Part shown: piece by piece, positions 35,703-46,907 of the stretch
Layout of the letters: the number at the start of each line of letters is the position of its first letter
Position numbering within the stretch: position 1 is the first letter of the stretch
From: Candidatus Altimarinota bacterium
GTDB taxonomy: Bacteria; Patescibacteriota; Gracilibacteria; BD1-5; UBA6164
NCBI GenBank assembly: GCA_027019405.1
Contig: JALUWO010000078.1
Span: 1-64,000, forward strand
Direction of reading: 5' to 3'
DNA: 64,000 nucleotides
Program-made: the position numbers and the translations under genes
Notes under the pieces: generated by a model
Databases searched by the model: none
What the model was told of the DNA's origin: nothing
Seen by the model: the letters and a program-made list of their open reading frames with translations, nothing else

Positions 35703-36296
35703 ATGCAAAATATACTAAAAAATAAAGAATTTCTTGATTGGTGTTATTGATGAATAACAGAATTAACTCTTATTTCAACAAGTAATTCTAAAAAATTAAA
35801 GCCTTTTGTGAAAGAAGAAAATGAATGGTGAAATAAATTAATTTGACAAGAAAATAATAATCAATGGACTACATTGCTTTGTGAGTGAGCAGTAAAAGAA
35901 CTTTTGGAAGAACTTTGATATAAGAATTTAAGAAATGCTAGAAAATTACAATCTTCACATTCAAAGAAAAAATATAATCCTGATTGGGAATGTGATGACT
36001 TTGTTTGGGAAGTAAAATGAAGAAATTGGACAACTCCTTGAACAGCTTGAGAAAAAATTCTTTGAACTCCTTTGAAATATTCAGAGATTCCTAGATTATA
36101 TTGAAAACCTTTGAGAATTGTTTGTGTTTGATATCAAGAAAGGGAAGCTAAAAATTGATTTGCTTGTGGAAATTTGATAAATCCAGAAAAAAGATGAACA
36201 GAAGAATTAGCTAAAATGCTTTTGTTATTCAAAAAACTAAAAATTGAATATGTAGGTTTTACAGATTTATTAGAAAAATTAAAAAATAAAAAGTAA
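35703..36296 (+). CDS. Candidate type II restriction endonuclease (PD-(D/E)XK)
   Basis: 197 residues. The catalytic-looking core is PDWECDDFVWEVKGRNW: an Asp at 94 or 98/99 and Glu103-x-Lys105, followed by TTPGTAGEKILGTPLKYSE, a block I associate with restriction enzymes. It begins 26 bases after the HEPN gene and 42 bases before a small XRE regulator, then a second methylase: a classic restriction-modification layout. Cleavage site cannot be read from sequence. Confidence 0.65.
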
Positions 36297-36338
36297 ACTA
36301 AAATAGTTGACTTATTTTAAAAAATTAATAGAATAAGA

Positions 36339-36542
36339 ATGTTAGAGAAACAAATTAAAGAATTTTTAAAAAAACAAAATTTGAAACAAAGTGATGTTTA
36401 TAATAAATTAGATATTTCTAAACAAAATTTTTATAAAGCAATTAGAACAAAAAATTTTGATAATCCAACTTTGCAAAAAGTTCTTGATTTTCTTTGACTT
36501 GAAATTCTTATTTTATTAAAAGAAAAAAAATGAAAATATTAA
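36339..36542 (+). CDS. Small XRE-type helix-turn-helix regulator
   Basis: 67 residues. The helix-turn-helix reads LKQSDVYNKLDISKQNFYKAI, followed by a short dimerisation-like helix. Size and position between a nuclease gene and a methylase gene resemble the controller (C) proteins that delay nuclease expression. Its end overlaps the next gene by 13 bases. Confidence 0.65.
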
Positions 36543-36931
36543 AAAAAGTTTATTATCATCAACTTGAAAAAGTTAAAAATATTTTGAAAGTAAAAGAAAT
36601 TTATAGAATGCCTTGATTAATTGAGGAAGAAGAATGAGATAATTTAAATATGGATAATTTTATTTTTCCTTGAAAAAGAAATTGGGATTGGTATTTTTCT
36701 GATGATAATTGAAATGAATGATTAGAGAAATTAGAAAATGTTTATTTTTCAAAAGAACCTTTGGAAGACTTATTATATGAATATATAGATTATTTTCCTG
36801 ATGTTGATTTATATATGTATGTTAAAATTTGAGAAAAAAATAATATTTTACTTGATTCAAAAGATTATTTTAAATTATTTTTAGAACCAAATTCATATTC
36901 AATAAAATCTGATTTAAAAACTTATGCCTAA
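36530..36931 (+). CDS. Acidic protein of unknown function in the restriction cluster
   Basis: 133 residues. It starts inside the regulator gene (13-base overlap) and its stop lies 5 bases inside the following methylase gene, so all three are translationally coupled. Rich in Asp, Glu, Tyr and Trp, including KRNWDWYFSDDNG. I recognise no family. Its acidity fits a regulator or inhibitor, but that is only a guess. Confidence 0.55.
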
Positions 36932-37706
36932 AAAACTAAAACTCTCACCAGAAGATTTTGACCAAGAATGCACCACTGTTTGGTCTTTTCCTAGAAGATG
37001 AAACTGGGCTACTCATAACAGTAAATACAGATGAAATTGGTCTCCTGAAGTTGTTAGAAACCTTATTTTAAGATATTCTAAAGAAGGAGATTTTTTGCTT
37101 GATCCTATGATTTGAGGAGGAACAACTGCTATTGAAGCAAAACTTTTGAATAGAAATCTGCTTTGCTATGATATAAATCCAGAAGCTATAAAATTAACTG
37201 AAAGTTTACTTGATTTTGAAATAGATTCTGAAACAAGTTCAGAATGACAAGTTAAAATAAAAGTTAAAAAACATAATGCTACAAAGAAAAATAAAGATTT
37301 AAAAGATGAAAGTATTGATTTTGTTCTTATGCATCCACCTTATGTTGATATAATAAAATATAGTGATTGAATTAAATGAGATTTATCACAAATCCATGAT
37401 ATTAATAAATTTTGTGATGAAATGGAAAAAGTAGCAAAAGAGAGTTATAGAGTTTTGAAAACTTGAAAATTTTGTGCTGTTTTGATGTGAGATACTAGAA
37501 GAGAAAAAATGTACCAACCTTTAGCTTTTAAAGTAATGGAAAGATTTTTAAAAGTAGGTTTTGCTTTAAAAGAAGATATTATTAAAGTTCAGCATAATTG
37601 TAAAGCAACTTGATTTTGGGTACAAAAATCCAAAGATTATAATTTCCTGCTTATCATGCATGAACACTTATTTATTTTTAAAAAACTCCTACAAAAAAAG
37701 ACTTAA
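36924..37706 (+). CDS. DNA methyltransferase, N4/N6 amino type
   Basis: 260 residues. WSFPRRGNWATHNSKYRGNW opens it, the SAM motif is DPMIGGGTTAIEAKLLNR (from 60) and the catalytic motif is HPPY at 137-140. Motif I before IV and the HPPY variant suggest a beta- or gamma-type cytosine-N4 or adenine-N6 methylase. Probably the cognate partner of the nuclease at 35.7 kb. Overlaps the unknown gene by 8 bases. Confidence 0.82.
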
Positions 37707-38424: not shown

Positions 38425-41400
38425 ATGAAAACTTTATTTATAAAAATAACATTGATATGTATTTTAATGTTTAATTTAACCACTTTTTGAGCTTGAGCAG
38501 ATAGTTTCTCAAGATATAGAAGTGTTGATACTTGAACTTTTAAAGAGTATTGATTTCAAATTACAAAAGAATTTTTTGTATTGAAAAATTCTCATGAAGT
38601 AAATGGTAGTTTAAGTGTACCAGCTCTTTCTAAATTGGAAGTTTTAGTAAAACAATCTTTTAATTATCTTCCTGATGACATTAAAAATCAATCTTATTAT
38701 ACTGAATTACTTTCTTCTTTACAAAGAGCAATAAAATATCCAGATAATGATTCAGTTTATAGTGATGTTACAAAAAAATTAGCTAATTATTTAGGTAAAT
38801 CTCAGATTTCATCTATTTCTTGAAAAGTTTCTGCAATTCCTTCAAAATGAAATGCTCCATTGGTTGTTACTCTAAAAGCTGATGTTGTAGATCCTGAATG
38901 AACATTAATTCCAAAAAATAATTATGTTTGGTGGATTGATTTATGAGGTAGAAAGAAAATTTTAGGTAATTGACCAAGTATAAATTATACTTTTAGAAAT
39001 CAATGAAAATATTGAGTTTTTGTTGATGTTAGATCAAATCATAAAAATAAAAAAGGTTATACAGATGTTTTGTCATATAGATGAAAAGTTAATATAGATG
39101 TTTTATCAAAGATTGCATCTGTTATTGTAAAAGTAAATTGAGAAAGGGTATGAGATAAAAAAGAATTAAAATTTACTCCTGATGATGCAAAATATTGACT
39201 TATATTTGATGCAACTTCAACAGTTCCAACACAAGATGCAAAAATAATAAAAACTTCATGGGATTTTGGTAATGGTATAAAAAAGACTTATAATAATTCT
39301 CCAAAAGTTGAAAGAGTTTCATATTATAAAGAATGAAATTATAAAGTAACATTAAATATGGAGACAAATCTTTGAGATGTTATAACTAAAGAATTTGATT
39401 TATTTATAAATGATCCAATTGCAACAATAAATGTAAAACCTTTAGAATGATATTTATGAGATAAATTTACTTTTTCAGCTAAAACAGCAGCAAATGCAGA
39501 TGAACTTACTTATAATTGGGAAATAGTTGATATAGTTGATGATAAAGTTATTTTTAAAAAACAAGCAAAAGTATTTACTTATTCATTCCCTAAAAAATGA
39601 TATTTCAATATAAAATTGAAAGTAAATTCTGCTTATGCTCAAACTGATGACATTGATAGTAAAATAATATATATTAGTTCTAGGCCTCCAATAGTTAGTT
39701 TTAAAACAAGTATTCCAGAGAAAAATAAACCAAATAGAGTTTTATTTGATGCAACAGATACTTTTGATCCAGATTATATAGATAATTGAAAATTGAAATA
39801 TTCTTGGTTAATTGATTGAAATAGAGTAAATCTTAAAGATTCAAATAAAAATGGTTCATTATGATATTTTACATTTGATTCAATTTGAACTCATGATGTT
39901 AGTTTAGAAGTTACTGATCCAGATAATGTAAAATCAGTTAAGACACAAAAAGTTAAAATAAATTCAATACTATCTGTTGATTTTTCAGCAAGTCCAAGAG
40001 CTATTTCTAGAGGTTCTGATATAGAATTTATTGCTGTTTCAAAAGAAGCTATATTATATGAATGGGATTTTTGAGATTGAGATGTAGAATGAGGTAAAAA
40101 ATCAAATATAAGACATACTTATGACAAATCTTGAAAATATAATGTTAAATTAAGTGTTGAAGATGCATCTTGAAATAGAAATTCTTATTCACAAGTTATA
40201 TATGTTTGAGATTGAAAAAATCCAGTTGCAATATTGGATATTACTTCTTGAGCTAATTGAATTCCTCCAATAGAAAAGAGTGTATGTAATTGAAATGATG
40301 CATATATAGTAAATAGAATTGATAATATTCAATTAAATGCAGGTTCAAGTATTGATGTTACTTGAGATGAAACAGGATTAGATTATTCAATTAAAATATG
40401 AAATTGAAAATATTATACAGCAAGAACTGTATCTTATAAATTTGATGAATTATGATGTTATCCTATAAAATTAACTGTAACAAGTAGAAAATCTAGAACT
40501 TCTGATTCAAAAGCAATTTGGGTTAAAGTAAAAAATTTAAAACCTAGTTTAAGTGCTTTATCTACAAAAATGGAAAATCCAGATTCAGATCCAGTTATAG
40601 TAGATGTTTCTGCTGTTTGAGCAAAAGATAAGGATTGAGTTATTACTTCATATTTATGGTATTATTATACTGATATAGATCCAGAACCACAAGGTTTTAG
40701 AGTTACAACTTCTCCTAGTACAAAATTTGTATTACCTAAAATAACAGGAAATTATTATTTTGTTTTAGTTATGACAGATGATAATTGAGAAAAAGTAAGT
40801 TCAAAAGATTTATGAAAAGAAGCAATAATTACTTTGGCTTGAAATAATATAAATGTACCTCTTGTAAATTTAACTGTAAATGATAATTCTGTTTATATCT
40901 GAGAAGATGTTGTATTTACAGCAAAAGTAAAAAATATTTTATGAAGAAATATTTCATCAAAATCTAAATATTACTGGGATTTTGATTGAGATTGATTTTA
41001 TGATCAAGAATCTACAACAAATACAGTTAGTCATGTATATAAGAAATCATGAACTTTTTATGCAAAAGTAAAAGTAAAACATAAATGATATAGTAATACA
41101 AGAATAGTTGAAATAGATGTTGCAAATAGATTAACTCCTGATTTTAAATATATATCAATTTGAAATACATTTCTATTTTTAAATACTTCAAAATGAGTTT
41201 ATAATTCTATTATTTGGGATTTATGAGATGGAAAAAAGATACAATGAAAAGATGATTTTAAACATGTATATACTGATTGAAAAGTTACTCATTTAGTTGT
41301 ATTGAAATTGGTTGAAGGAACAAAAATAAAAACTAAAAAGTTTTTAGTTAGAAAAAATATGAAAAATTTACTTGAAACAAAGAAAAATAATTTTTTTGTA

Positions 41401-43317
41401 TTGAGTTATCCTGAAAATAAAGATTGAAAAATAGATGTAAAAGAATCAATGGATTATATTTATATTTATCCTTCAGTTAAAAATTATGATGTTGCATTGT
41501 ATGCTATTGATACAAATGCAGATGTAGATAGTGATTTAAATTGATGAAAAGATGATGATGAAAATGTAAAAGCTAATAATCAAGAGATATTAAAAGTAAA
41601 ATTAAATAAAAACAGAATTCAAAATATTGTAGTTTTTATAAAAGATAAAGATTGAGTTGTTCTTGATTCAAAGAAAATAGAAATAACAAAAGAATATCTT
41701 GAGGTATCAAATGAAGATATATCAAAAATAAAATTTTTAAATGTTTCTATGCAACAGAAACAACAAATTGAAAAATTAAAAAAGATTATTTCTGGAATGC
41801 CTTCTGATGAAAGGTTAAAATCTATGAAATATCTTCAAAAACTTAAAGAAGAATGGTCAGATGATACTGAAAAAACTAAAATTATTTTAGAATTTGAATG
41901 ATATTTAGATGAAACAACTTTAACAAATAAAGATGATATAATAAATCTTTTAGAATGATTACTTGTTACTAATCAAGAAGATAAATCTGAAAAAAATATA
42001 TCATATAATGCTTTAAAAAATTTAATTCCAAATGATATAACTTGTAGTTGAAGTTGAACTACAACTAGTAATTCTAAAGATAATAATTTAGATTCTTGAT
42101 TTAGTGATTGTAAAAAATTATTAATTTCAAAATTGGATGCTATAAAAGTTAGTGATGATACTGAATTAAATAGAAAATTATGAAAAGAAATATTATCTGA
42201 AATAGTATCTACAAAAGAATTAACAACAAAGGAAAAATTGAACTTCAAAGCTATTTTATCAACTTTTGTTTATTGATGAGTTAAAAATATTCCAAAAACA
42301 GAAAAAGATAATATAGAAAAAGATACAAAAACTCAAATTAATGAATCTAGTACTTTTGATATAATATGAATATTAAAAAAAGTTTTTTATATAATTTGAT
42401 GAATATTATTAATATTATTAGTTATAACATGATTATTTTTTATTTATTATAAGATTGCAAATAAAGATAAAAATATTTGATTTAGTGATTTTATATTAAA
42501 AAAGACAAAACATAATGATGATATTATTGAAAATAATACTGATAGTTTATTAGATGATTTAAATATAGAAGATAAAAAGGAAGATATTTTATGATCATTA
42601 GATAAAGATAAATATGAAGATGAAAATAAAATAGAGGATAATGTTGAGATAAAGGATACTTCTTGAGAAACTGTACCAAATTGGTTAAGATGAGCAGAAG
42701 CAAATATAAAAAATAATAATGAAGATGAGATTAATAAAGAAGAAGAGTCAAAAGGAGATAAACAAGAAGTTAGTGATGAGAAAATAGAAAAAGAAACATC
42801 ATTAGAAGCTGAACAATGAGATGTTCCAGATTGGTTAAAATGAAGTATATCAGAGGATAATGAATCTGAAAGAGAAGAAGAAAAAAATAAATCAGAGATA
42901 CCAGATTGGCTAAAAGATTCATTAATTGAGGATAATAAAGAAGATAAATCAATACAGGAAGAAGAAGTAAAAGAAGAACAAAAAGTTAGTGATAAAGAAG
43001 AAAAAGTAGGTAAAAAACCAAGAAGAAAGACTACTAGAAAATCTAAAACTAGTAAAAATGAAGTAGTTAGTGATAATAAAAAAGATATTCAAGAAAAGAA
43101 AGTTACTTCAAGAACTAATGAGAAAACTGTAAAAGAAGCAACTAAAGAAGATAAAGAAAAAATAGAAAAAGATAATAAAGAAGAAAAAAAACCAAGAAGA
43201 AAGACTACTAAAAAAACTAAAATTAGTAAAGTTGAAGAAAATAATGATAATAAAAAAATAAAGGAAGAATTGTGGGATGATTGAATGGAAATTCCTGATT
43301 GGTTAAAATCTGATTAA
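38425..43317 (+). CDS. Giant PKD-repeat surface protein with C-terminal anchor and motif-rich tail
   Basis: 1630 residues. Signal peptide about 1-22 (ending TTFGAGA). A long extracytoplasmic region carries at least four PKD-type domains marked by WDFGNG, YEWDFGDGD, YYWDFDGDGFYD and IIWDLGDGK. A DKDGKIDVKE-like loop (about 1000) and DTNADVDSDLNGG resemble calcium-binding loops. One membrane helix lies at about 1318-1340. The tail of about 290 residues is highly charged and repeats (V/I)P(D/N)WL(K/R) at 1417, 1467, 1492 and 1623, the last at the very C-terminus, plus two KKPRRKTT(R/K)K blocks near 1531 and 1589. Surface adhesion or cell-contact role inferred; the tail motifs look like docking sites. 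Confidence 0.8.
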
Positions 43318-45426: not shown

Positions 45427-45448
45427 TTTATGGGTATTCTAAAAATAA
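45405..45448. promoter_or_regulatory. Operator-like inverted repeat over the abiE promoter
   Basis: TTATTTTTAGAATA (45405-45418) and its exact reverse complement TATTCTAAAAATAA (45435-45448) flank the -10 box with a 16-base centre. One arm fills the spacer, the other covers the likely transcription start. AbiEi antitoxins of known systems bind inverted repeats in their own promoter, so this is the likely autoregulatory site. Confidence 0.65.
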
Positions 45449-45465
45449 TTTATAAGCTAATTTAT

Positions 45466-46056
45466 ATGAATATAAAAGAAAAACTAGCTAATTTAGATAG
45501 TATTTTTTTGAAAAAACAATTTTTACAAAAAATAATTAAATTATCTTGAAAAAAGTATGAAATTAATGATTTAATTGAATTATGATATATTTCTGCTATA
45601 AAAAAATGAGAGATATATTATAATAATATGTTATGAAAAACTAAAAATCCATATTTAATATGATGAGCATATATGGATTTTAAAGATTTTATATTTTGAG
45701 GCTTTGATAGATATAATAAAGAATGATTTATAACCCAAGTATCAAATATTTTTACTATTTATAATTTAAAATATTCTAGAGAGTTAGAAATATTATGATT
45801 AAAGTTTAAATTTAAAAAAGTAAAAAAAGAGTTTTTTTATTGAAAATATAGAAAAATGATAATGTGAAAAAATATTTATTTTATGGAAAAAGAAAGATTG
45901 TTTTTAGAATATATTAGAGATTATATAAAATATGATAATTCAAAGTTTATTGAAATTTATAAAACATTAAATCAAGAAAAACTAGAAAAATATGCTAAAA
46001 AATATCCAATTAAGAGAGTTATTTTAAAATTAAATAAAATTAAAAAATGTATTTAA
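45466..46056 (+). CDS. abiEi: AbiEi-like antitoxin and repressor
   Basis: 196 residues. The N-terminal winged-helix-like part has KKYEINDLIELGYISAIKKG and YLIGGAYMDF; the C-terminal half is strongly basic. In type IV AbiE systems this protein represses the operon and counteracts the nucleotidyltransferase toxin. The call rests on the partner gene, which overlaps it by 10 bases, and on the inverted repeat upstream, more than on the sequence alone. Confidence 0.65.
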
Positions 46057-46907
46057 AAAATATAAAGAAATTTTTATGAAAATATGATAATTTATCAAAA
46101 ACTAAATTTATAAAAATTTTAGGATGGAGTAATAAACTTAATTTTGATGACTATAAATTAGAAAAAGATTTTTTACTAACATTAATTTTAATAAAATTTT
46201 GAGAAAAATATTCAGATTTGATTTTTAAAGGTTGAACTTGTTTAAATAAAGTATATTTTCCATATTTTAGATTAAGTGAGGATTTGGATTTTGTTTTAGA
46301 TGATAGTAGTTTATGAAGAACTGCTAGAAAAACTTTGTTAAAGAAATATGAAGATGATTTTATAAAAGATTTATGACTTTTAGGATTAAAATTACAAGAG
46401 TGAAGAACAAAATATGATGAACATAAACTAGCTATGTTTACTTTTGAATATAATTCAATTTTTGATAATAATACTCAAACTATAAAAATAGATATTTCAC
46501 TAAAAAATGAATTACAATTAAATCCTGTATATTGAGAGATAAAATCTATATTTGTTGATAAAATCTTGGAAGAAAATCTTTTCTGAAATCACAAAATAAA
46601 AACAATGGATTTAAAAGAAATGCTTGCAGAAAAAATAAGAGCAGCTTTAACTAGAAAAGAGCCTGCAATTAGAGATTTATTTGATATTTGGTATGTAAGA
46701 AATTTTAGTGATTTTGATTTTGAAGATGAAGAATTTAAAGATTTAGTAAATCTAAAATTAAAAGAAGTAAATTATGTTTATACCTTAGAACAAAATTATG
46801 AGCTACTAAAGCAACAAATACAAACAGATTTAAAGCCAGTATTAAATGAGATTTTTGACTTTGATTTTGATAGTAGTTTTGAGTTTGTTAGAAAGTTTGA
46901 GGTGTAA
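46047..46907 (+). CDS. abiEii: AbiEii-like nucleotidyltransferase toxin
   Basis: 286 residues. Motif I of the family is intact: FKGGTCLNKVYF followed by RLSEDLDFVL, giving GG and the two metal-binding aspartates of the DNA polymerase beta fold. Later EKIRAALTRKEPAIRDLFDIW matches the conserved helical motifs III-IV. Toxins of this group use a nucleotide to stop growth upon phage attack, some by modifying tRNA. Overlaps abiEi by 10 bases. Confidence 0.85.

Follow-up and report, generated by a model that had tools for sequence, protein, structure and literature searches.

The window analysed here, a 64,000-nucleotide stretch of contig JALUWO010000078.1 from a Candidatus Altimarinota bacterium, encodes a large PKD surface protein whose tail repeats the short motif (V/I)P(D/N)WL(K/R), and the question raised by this locus is what such a tail does. 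The ultrasmall bacteria of this group are probably host-dependent, and to our knowledge little has been established about how their surface is linked to the cell interior. A preliminary description had read the repeated motifs as docking sites for a cytoplasmic partner. This reading stands as an inference, carried by the conservation of the motif, the predicted inside location of the tail, and disorder of the tail with order at the motifs. We consider it likely that the product is a single-pass envelope protein with a PKD stalk outside the cell and a disordered cytoplasmic tail that acts as a multivalent docking platform.

The frame at 38425-43317 is open under NCBI table 25 and closed under table 11, with 77 in-frame TGA codons read as glycine. 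This is the code of SR1 and Gracilibacteria. Profile searches recovered five PKD stretches (PF00801/PF18911), with PF00801 at E 6.5e-47 (157.9 bits, compared with a curated cut-off of 23.5) and PF18911 at E 1e-39. All Pfam matches of the window protein were to PKD-type and similar extracellular domains; neither a chemoreceptor signalling domain nor T4SS_pilin (PF18895) was found among them. The polycystin cation channel model TIGR00864 reached 56.5 bits against a curated cut-off of 1861, a score that came from the PKD repeats only. A PDB fold search with the membrane-proximal part of the protein was set aside, as all its matches were generic Ig/PKD-like ones that superposed poorly. Hydropathy marked a signal-like helix at the N-terminus and one further helix, the latter also present in the AlphaFold model, giving the following layout:

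38425..43317, + strand: gene for the 1630-aa PKD surface protein (open frame under NCBI table 25; strong match in 40/40 genomes of the order)
38425..38499, + strand: signal peptide, about residues 1-25, MKTLFIKITLICILMFNLTTFGAGA (sequence; N-terminal hydropathy peak)
38500..42360, + strand: ectodomain, PKD domains followed by a PKD-like and about nine-helix membrane-proximal part (Pfam; AlphaFold)
42361..42459, + strand: single transmembrane helix, about residues 1313-1345 (hydropathy; model helix 409-441)
42460..43314, + strand: cytoplasmic tail, predicted to be disordered, about 285-290 residues (pLDDT 38-52 outside helices and motifs)
42481..42507, + strand: conserved juxtamembrane GFSDFILKK, consensus GFQDFII (alignment consensus; short model helix)

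The predicted order of signal peptide, ectodomain, one helix and tail puts the tail inside the cell, and relatives with two extra N-terminal helices have the same parity, their tails again being predicted inside. Topology prediction thus agrees with the cytoplasmic placement given in the preliminary description and speaks against a tail outside the cell. AlphaFold modelled residues 905-1400 with a mean pLDDT of 81. In the model a PKD-like part leads into a bundle of some nine helices, and the membrane helix and a short juxtamembrane helix follow; beyond them confidence is low. The tail, earlier described as disordered, was modelled as such, with order only at the motifs: pLDDT lies mostly at 38-52 per ten-residue block and rises to 60-68 at the four copies. 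Taking the model at face value, such peaks would be expected of short linear motifs that fold on binding; local alignment conservation alone could also raise pLDDT at these positions.

The window holds several other genes of note. On the 3' side of the PKD gene are signal peptidase I-like and truB-like genes, as read from sequence. Two adjoining ORFs at 45430-46907 resemble, by the look of their sequence, an AbiEi/AbiEii-type pair of antitoxin and nucleotidyltransferase toxin. Restriction endonuclease-, small regulator- and DNA methyltransferase-like ORFs at 35703-37706 stand beside ssb and look likely to form a restriction-modification set. The assembly from which the window comes has 504 contigs and totals 2.7 Mb, whereas relatives have 0.6-2.1 Mb, mostly 0.9-1.5 Mb; more than one strain may be mixed in it, or some of its contigs may be foreign.

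All four motif copies of the preliminary description were located past the single membrane helix, together with its two near-identical basic KKPRRKTT blocks, one in each unit of a 125-nt direct repeat situated between copies 3 and 4:

42673..42690, + strand: motif copy 1, VPNWLR (pattern search; pLDDT up to 68 in its block)
42823..42840, + strand: motif copy 2, VPDWLK (pattern search; pLDDT 63)
42898..42915, + strand: motif copy 3, IPDWLK (pattern search; pLDDT 64-61)
42959..43083, + strand: basic block 1, GKKPRRKTTRKSK, first half of the direct repeat (most basic 40-residue stretch of the tail)
43133..43257, + strand: basic block 2, KKPRRKTTKKTK, second half of the direct repeat (78% identical to the first)
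43291..43308, + strand: motif copy 4, the C-terminal IPDWLK, within ELWDDGMEIPDWLKSD (pattern search; pLDDT 60-65)

After the last copy come just S-D and the stop (IPDWLKSD), and the extended form around it, ELWxDGMxxPDWLK, is the family consensus in the alignment. Shuffled versions of the window tail held a mean of 0.006 P[DNSE]W[LMI] motifs, compared with the four observed. Could the copies nevertheless be functionless, the outcome of low-complexity drift or of a recent repeat duplication? The 125-nt repeat would fit such an origin, as would near-identical copies in some relatives, where EKVPDWLKGSF occurs three times. However, the four window copies differ in codons, which argues that constraint at the protein level, and not recent DNA duplication, keeps them alike. 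The motif is moreover conserved across the order and turns up again in a second protein family, at counts well beyond those of shuffled sequences (see below). On this sequence evidence the conservation largely refutes drift or duplication, which we find hardly credible.

Conservation among orthologues, on which the preliminary description had made its reading depend, was surveyed across the order in 40 genomes, 39 of them from relatives and one the window's own. Those relatives that were retrieved under public names mostly bear the label Candidatus Gracilibacteria, and they include the complete chromosome 28_42_T64. In a few genomes the match to the PKD surface protein is split over frames or contigs. 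Every readable orthologous tail carries the motif: the 39 tails hold 197 copies of PxW[LMI], with D at x in 158, I, V or L before P in 178 and L after W in 185, and the aliphatic position is mostly preceded by D, E, K or N. The slightly stricter pattern P[DNSE]W[LMI] occurs 174 times in 40 orthologues, compared with a shuffle mean of 0.5. A copy near the C-terminus is kept in most orthologues and occurs in each of the order's two larger families, in the form ELWDDGMKIPDWLK or ELPDWLK-stop. C-termini of family f1 mostly read ELWDDGM(K/E/D)(I/V)PDWLK plus a few residues, and most of those of family f2 read (E/D)(L/I)P(D/E)WLK-stop. Among the few orthologues that lack the terminal copy are L018, L020, L029 and L041, in which internal copies are present. 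One further orthologue (L021) ends at a contig edge, and on another contig that genome has a frame whose last residues are ...DDLPEWLKP. The extent of TGA recoding to glycine seems, from the sequences, to vary within the order, with none to few in-frame TGA codons in several f2 members (L021, L022-L025 compared) as against 77 in the window gene.

The basic blocks behave differently from the motif. The most basic stretch of the tail stands after most of the motifs in the majority of orthologues, and its sequence varies. A tail that binds nucleic acid or the nucleoid through a K/R/P/T-rich block, with PxWL in a secondary role, would account for the basic block found close to the end of the tail in most orthologues and for a block of different sequence, KRRKRQRYRENLKKR, in several tails of family f8 (below). 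Yet the sequence of the block varies freely, whereas PxWL is nearly invariant, and we regard nucleic-acid binding as a very unlikely main role of the tail.

A tryptophan motif might also be conserved because it binds the membrane surface. W-L pairs inserted in the inner leaflet, together with the basic blocks, would then hold the tail along the membrane with no protein partner, and the combination of an aromatic residue, an aliphatic residue and Lys beside basic K-rich stretches would suit such an anchor. An invariant P, a preferred D at x and acidic surroundings would, however, be odd in a segment that faces anionic lipids, and the precise C-terminal copy is kept as well. We therefore consider membrane anchoring unlikely.

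The spread of the motif within genomes was judged by DNA pattern searches. An 18-base motif pattern occurs five times in the window's own genome, four times in the tail and once in an aminotransferase-like enzyme. Across the 40 genomes, the DNA pattern for [VIL]PDWL[KR] falls almost exclusively in this PKD gene; readable matches elsewhere fell in an aminotransferase-like enzyme (three genomes), in a frame resembling a phosphoribosyltransferase, in frames that were short or spurious, and where contigs continued the gene. Other motif-bearing genes were accordingly rejected as co-clients, the readable outside matches being folded enzymes, short or spurious frames or continuations of contigs. A PDB sequence search with the motif array gave no meaningful match, and PDWL was not found as a motif in the open-access literature, in which a single paper names PKD alongside Absconditabacteria or Gracilibacteria. 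The suggestion that other membrane proteins might carry the motif thus failed within a genome, where it is nearly absent elsewhere, and held between clades, where it is found on other PKD-membrane proteins.

In a sample of 287 genomes of the phylum, ectodomain homologues outside the order (E below 1e-30) were present only in the same class, and these have no cytoplasmic tail; tail and motif are both missing from the homologues of several other class families. Interaction with the partner would therefore be dispensable for some versions of the ectodomain. In f8, a second family of the class, PxWL occurs in 12/12 tails of a PKD-membrane protein whose ectodomain differs from that of the window protein, one tail for each of the 12 genomes that gave a match. 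These proline-rich tails hold 29 PxWL motifs, compared with a shuffle mean of 0.33, and 29 of their 32 tryptophans lie inside the motif. In some of the MAGs labelled Peregrinibacteria (records L169, L171, L186 and L206), a separate PKD-membrane protein is encoded directly downstream of the tail-less homologue. It has PDWLK or PEWLK in its tail or at its C-terminus, and its juxtamembrane segment, PDLTFDELI, resembles that of the window family. That this protein is a simple orthologue of the C-terminal half of the window protein was rejected: profile comparison gives PKD-level similarity only, and we therefore do not claim orthology of the ectodomains. A gene fusion of a separate protein of this Peregrinibacteria type with the window family is possible. 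The presence of PxWL tails on PKD-membrane proteins of other clades makes the motif older than, or independent of, the window's protein family.

Further elements were seen in the f8 tails. The basic stretch mentioned above is common to several of them, and many have a C-terminal motif like DDEPVAFIxADSI besides PxWL; both KRRKRQRYRENLKKR and DDEPVAFIxADSI are possible further docking or nucleic-acid-binding elements.

The motif also invites comparison with the C-terminal peptide of FtsZ, whose partners include FtsA, ZipA and several further proteins (PMC8669495). In the surveyed genomes of the order, FtsZ ends D(V/I)P(A/T)FLRKK (for example, VPAFLRK), an aliphatic-P-x-aromatic-L-basic sequence in an acidic context, and one tail copy has the same extreme C-terminal placement. 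PxWL might then imitate the FtsZ peptide, bind FtsA and tie the surface protein to the division machinery. FtsA was found in 39/40 genomes and SepF in 0/40, so that FtsA would be the obvious reader; SepF was rejected as a partner. However, this resemblance was spotted after the fact, and the tails depart from the core D-[IV]-P-x-F-L-[RK], with W in every tail copy counted and F in every FtsZ read. Moreover, in a comparison of 22 FtsZ C-termini across the class, the peptide reads FLR in the order, FIR in f4, f5, f7, f9, f10 and f11, and FMR in f8. The FtsZ peptide thus varies across the class while the tails stay PxWL, with no covariation between the two, and we judge mimicry of FtsZ to be quite unlikely.

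The genomic context of the orthologues suggests an assembly across the envelope that is related to components of pili or of secretion. Most f2 and f3 orthologues have an N-terminal T4SS_pilin segment (PF18895; TrbC/VirB2-like) or are preceded by a T4SS_pilin gene, and at the four f8 loci tested such a gene is found immediately upstream. PKD2, a second membrane PKD protein with a predicted cytoplasmic N-terminus, is encoded in 40/40 genomes (loci L117-L146, for example L139:1072-3696); its gene adjoins the window-type gene in f2 and f3 and lies elsewhere in f1. When PKD2 copies were tested as whole proteins, the cytoplasmic part of some f1 members matched PF00437 (T2SSE): one member exceeded the curated cut-off, and two others stayed below it. 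This T2SSE-like domain stands without the rest of the ATPase and is apparently, from its sequence, a repurposed N-terminal domain of a secretion ATPase. It was considered as a reader of the motif and found unlikely, since the domain occurs in some f1 members only and the motif is order-wide. A gene that looks like PKD2 also follows the gene of a 2071-aa surface protein in an unclassified bacterium (C24_maxbin.053; L172:1-6213), which has a single C-terminal IPDWLKG past one membrane helix.

The tail motif is thus repeated, conserved and placed in a region predicted to be disordered, at a frequency far above chance. From its conservation throughout the order, its near-restriction to PKD-membrane proteins, and disorder with order at the motifs, we infer docking, and the tail is best explained as a multivalent docking array, a reading well supported as far as sequences and models reach. 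In this mechanism, a long stalk of PKD domains would be displayed outside the cell, where it might touch a host, as the preliminary description suggested. Each [VIL]P-x-W-L-[KR] copy inside would be a short linear motif, probably a helical turn once bound, and a cytoplasmic partner would receive it in a single conserved pocket. With several such copies strung along a flexible acidic chain that has a basic block towards its end, avidity would be high, and the partner would be clustered or anchored under the surface structure. Because T4SS_pilin is fused or adjacent in relatives and PKD2 is always present, the most likely setting would be a surface assembly that spans the envelope and is coupled to a scaffold or motor inside the cell. 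No partner was found among the candidates weighed (FtsA, SepF and the T2SSE-like domain of PKD2).

More tentatively, it is possible, if somewhat less than probable, that PxWL is a class-wide docking code. Such a code would be read by an undescribed peptide-binding domain of the Gracilibacteria/Peregrinibacteria group and, on at least two different PKD-membrane families, would connect a surface assembly of PKD and T4SS_pilin-like parts with a motor, scaffold or division protein in the cytoplasm. The interest of the locus lies in a surface protein that is present in every sampled genome of the order and bears a peptide code, predicted to face inside, that recurs across the class. A motif this short and defined is a direct bait for the cytoplasmic partner, and if that partner is a motor, a cytoskeletal protein or a regulator, it would show how surface contact is coupled to the interior of these probably host-dependent cells.

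Long membrane-anchored chains of PKD domains outside the cell place the window protein with other PKD-domain surface proteins (PF00801/PF18911), from which it differs in its conserved cytoplasmic PxWL array. Large PKD surface proteins have been reported in Vampirococcus lugosii (PMC8080830), and the passage of that report on PKD proteins mentions no cytoplasmic tail or motif. The T4SS_pilin/TrbC-VirB2 proteins (PF18895, PF04956) are related through context, being fused to or beside orthologues in relatives, whereas the family is absent from the window's own protein. The FtsZ C-terminal peptide (PMC8669495) has in common with the tail its residue pattern, its place at the C-terminus and an acidic disordered surrounding; the tail differs in having W for F, multiple copies, a membrane surface protein as carrier, and no covariation with FtsZ across clades. 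In chemoreceptors, the C-terminal pentapeptide NWETF tethers CheR and CheB (PMC7390727), and there, as we propose here, a short W-containing C-terminal motif of a membrane receptor recruits a cytoplasmic protein over a flexible linker. The window family, in contrast, has another motif, up to eight copies of it and a PKD ectodomain; by analogy, the window protein may work like these CheR/CheB-tether docking peptides, yet it is not a member of the chemoreceptor family. What is unusual, set against these systems, is the number of copies, their presence throughout the order, and the recurrence of PxWL in another clade, where a different PKD-membrane protein carries it.
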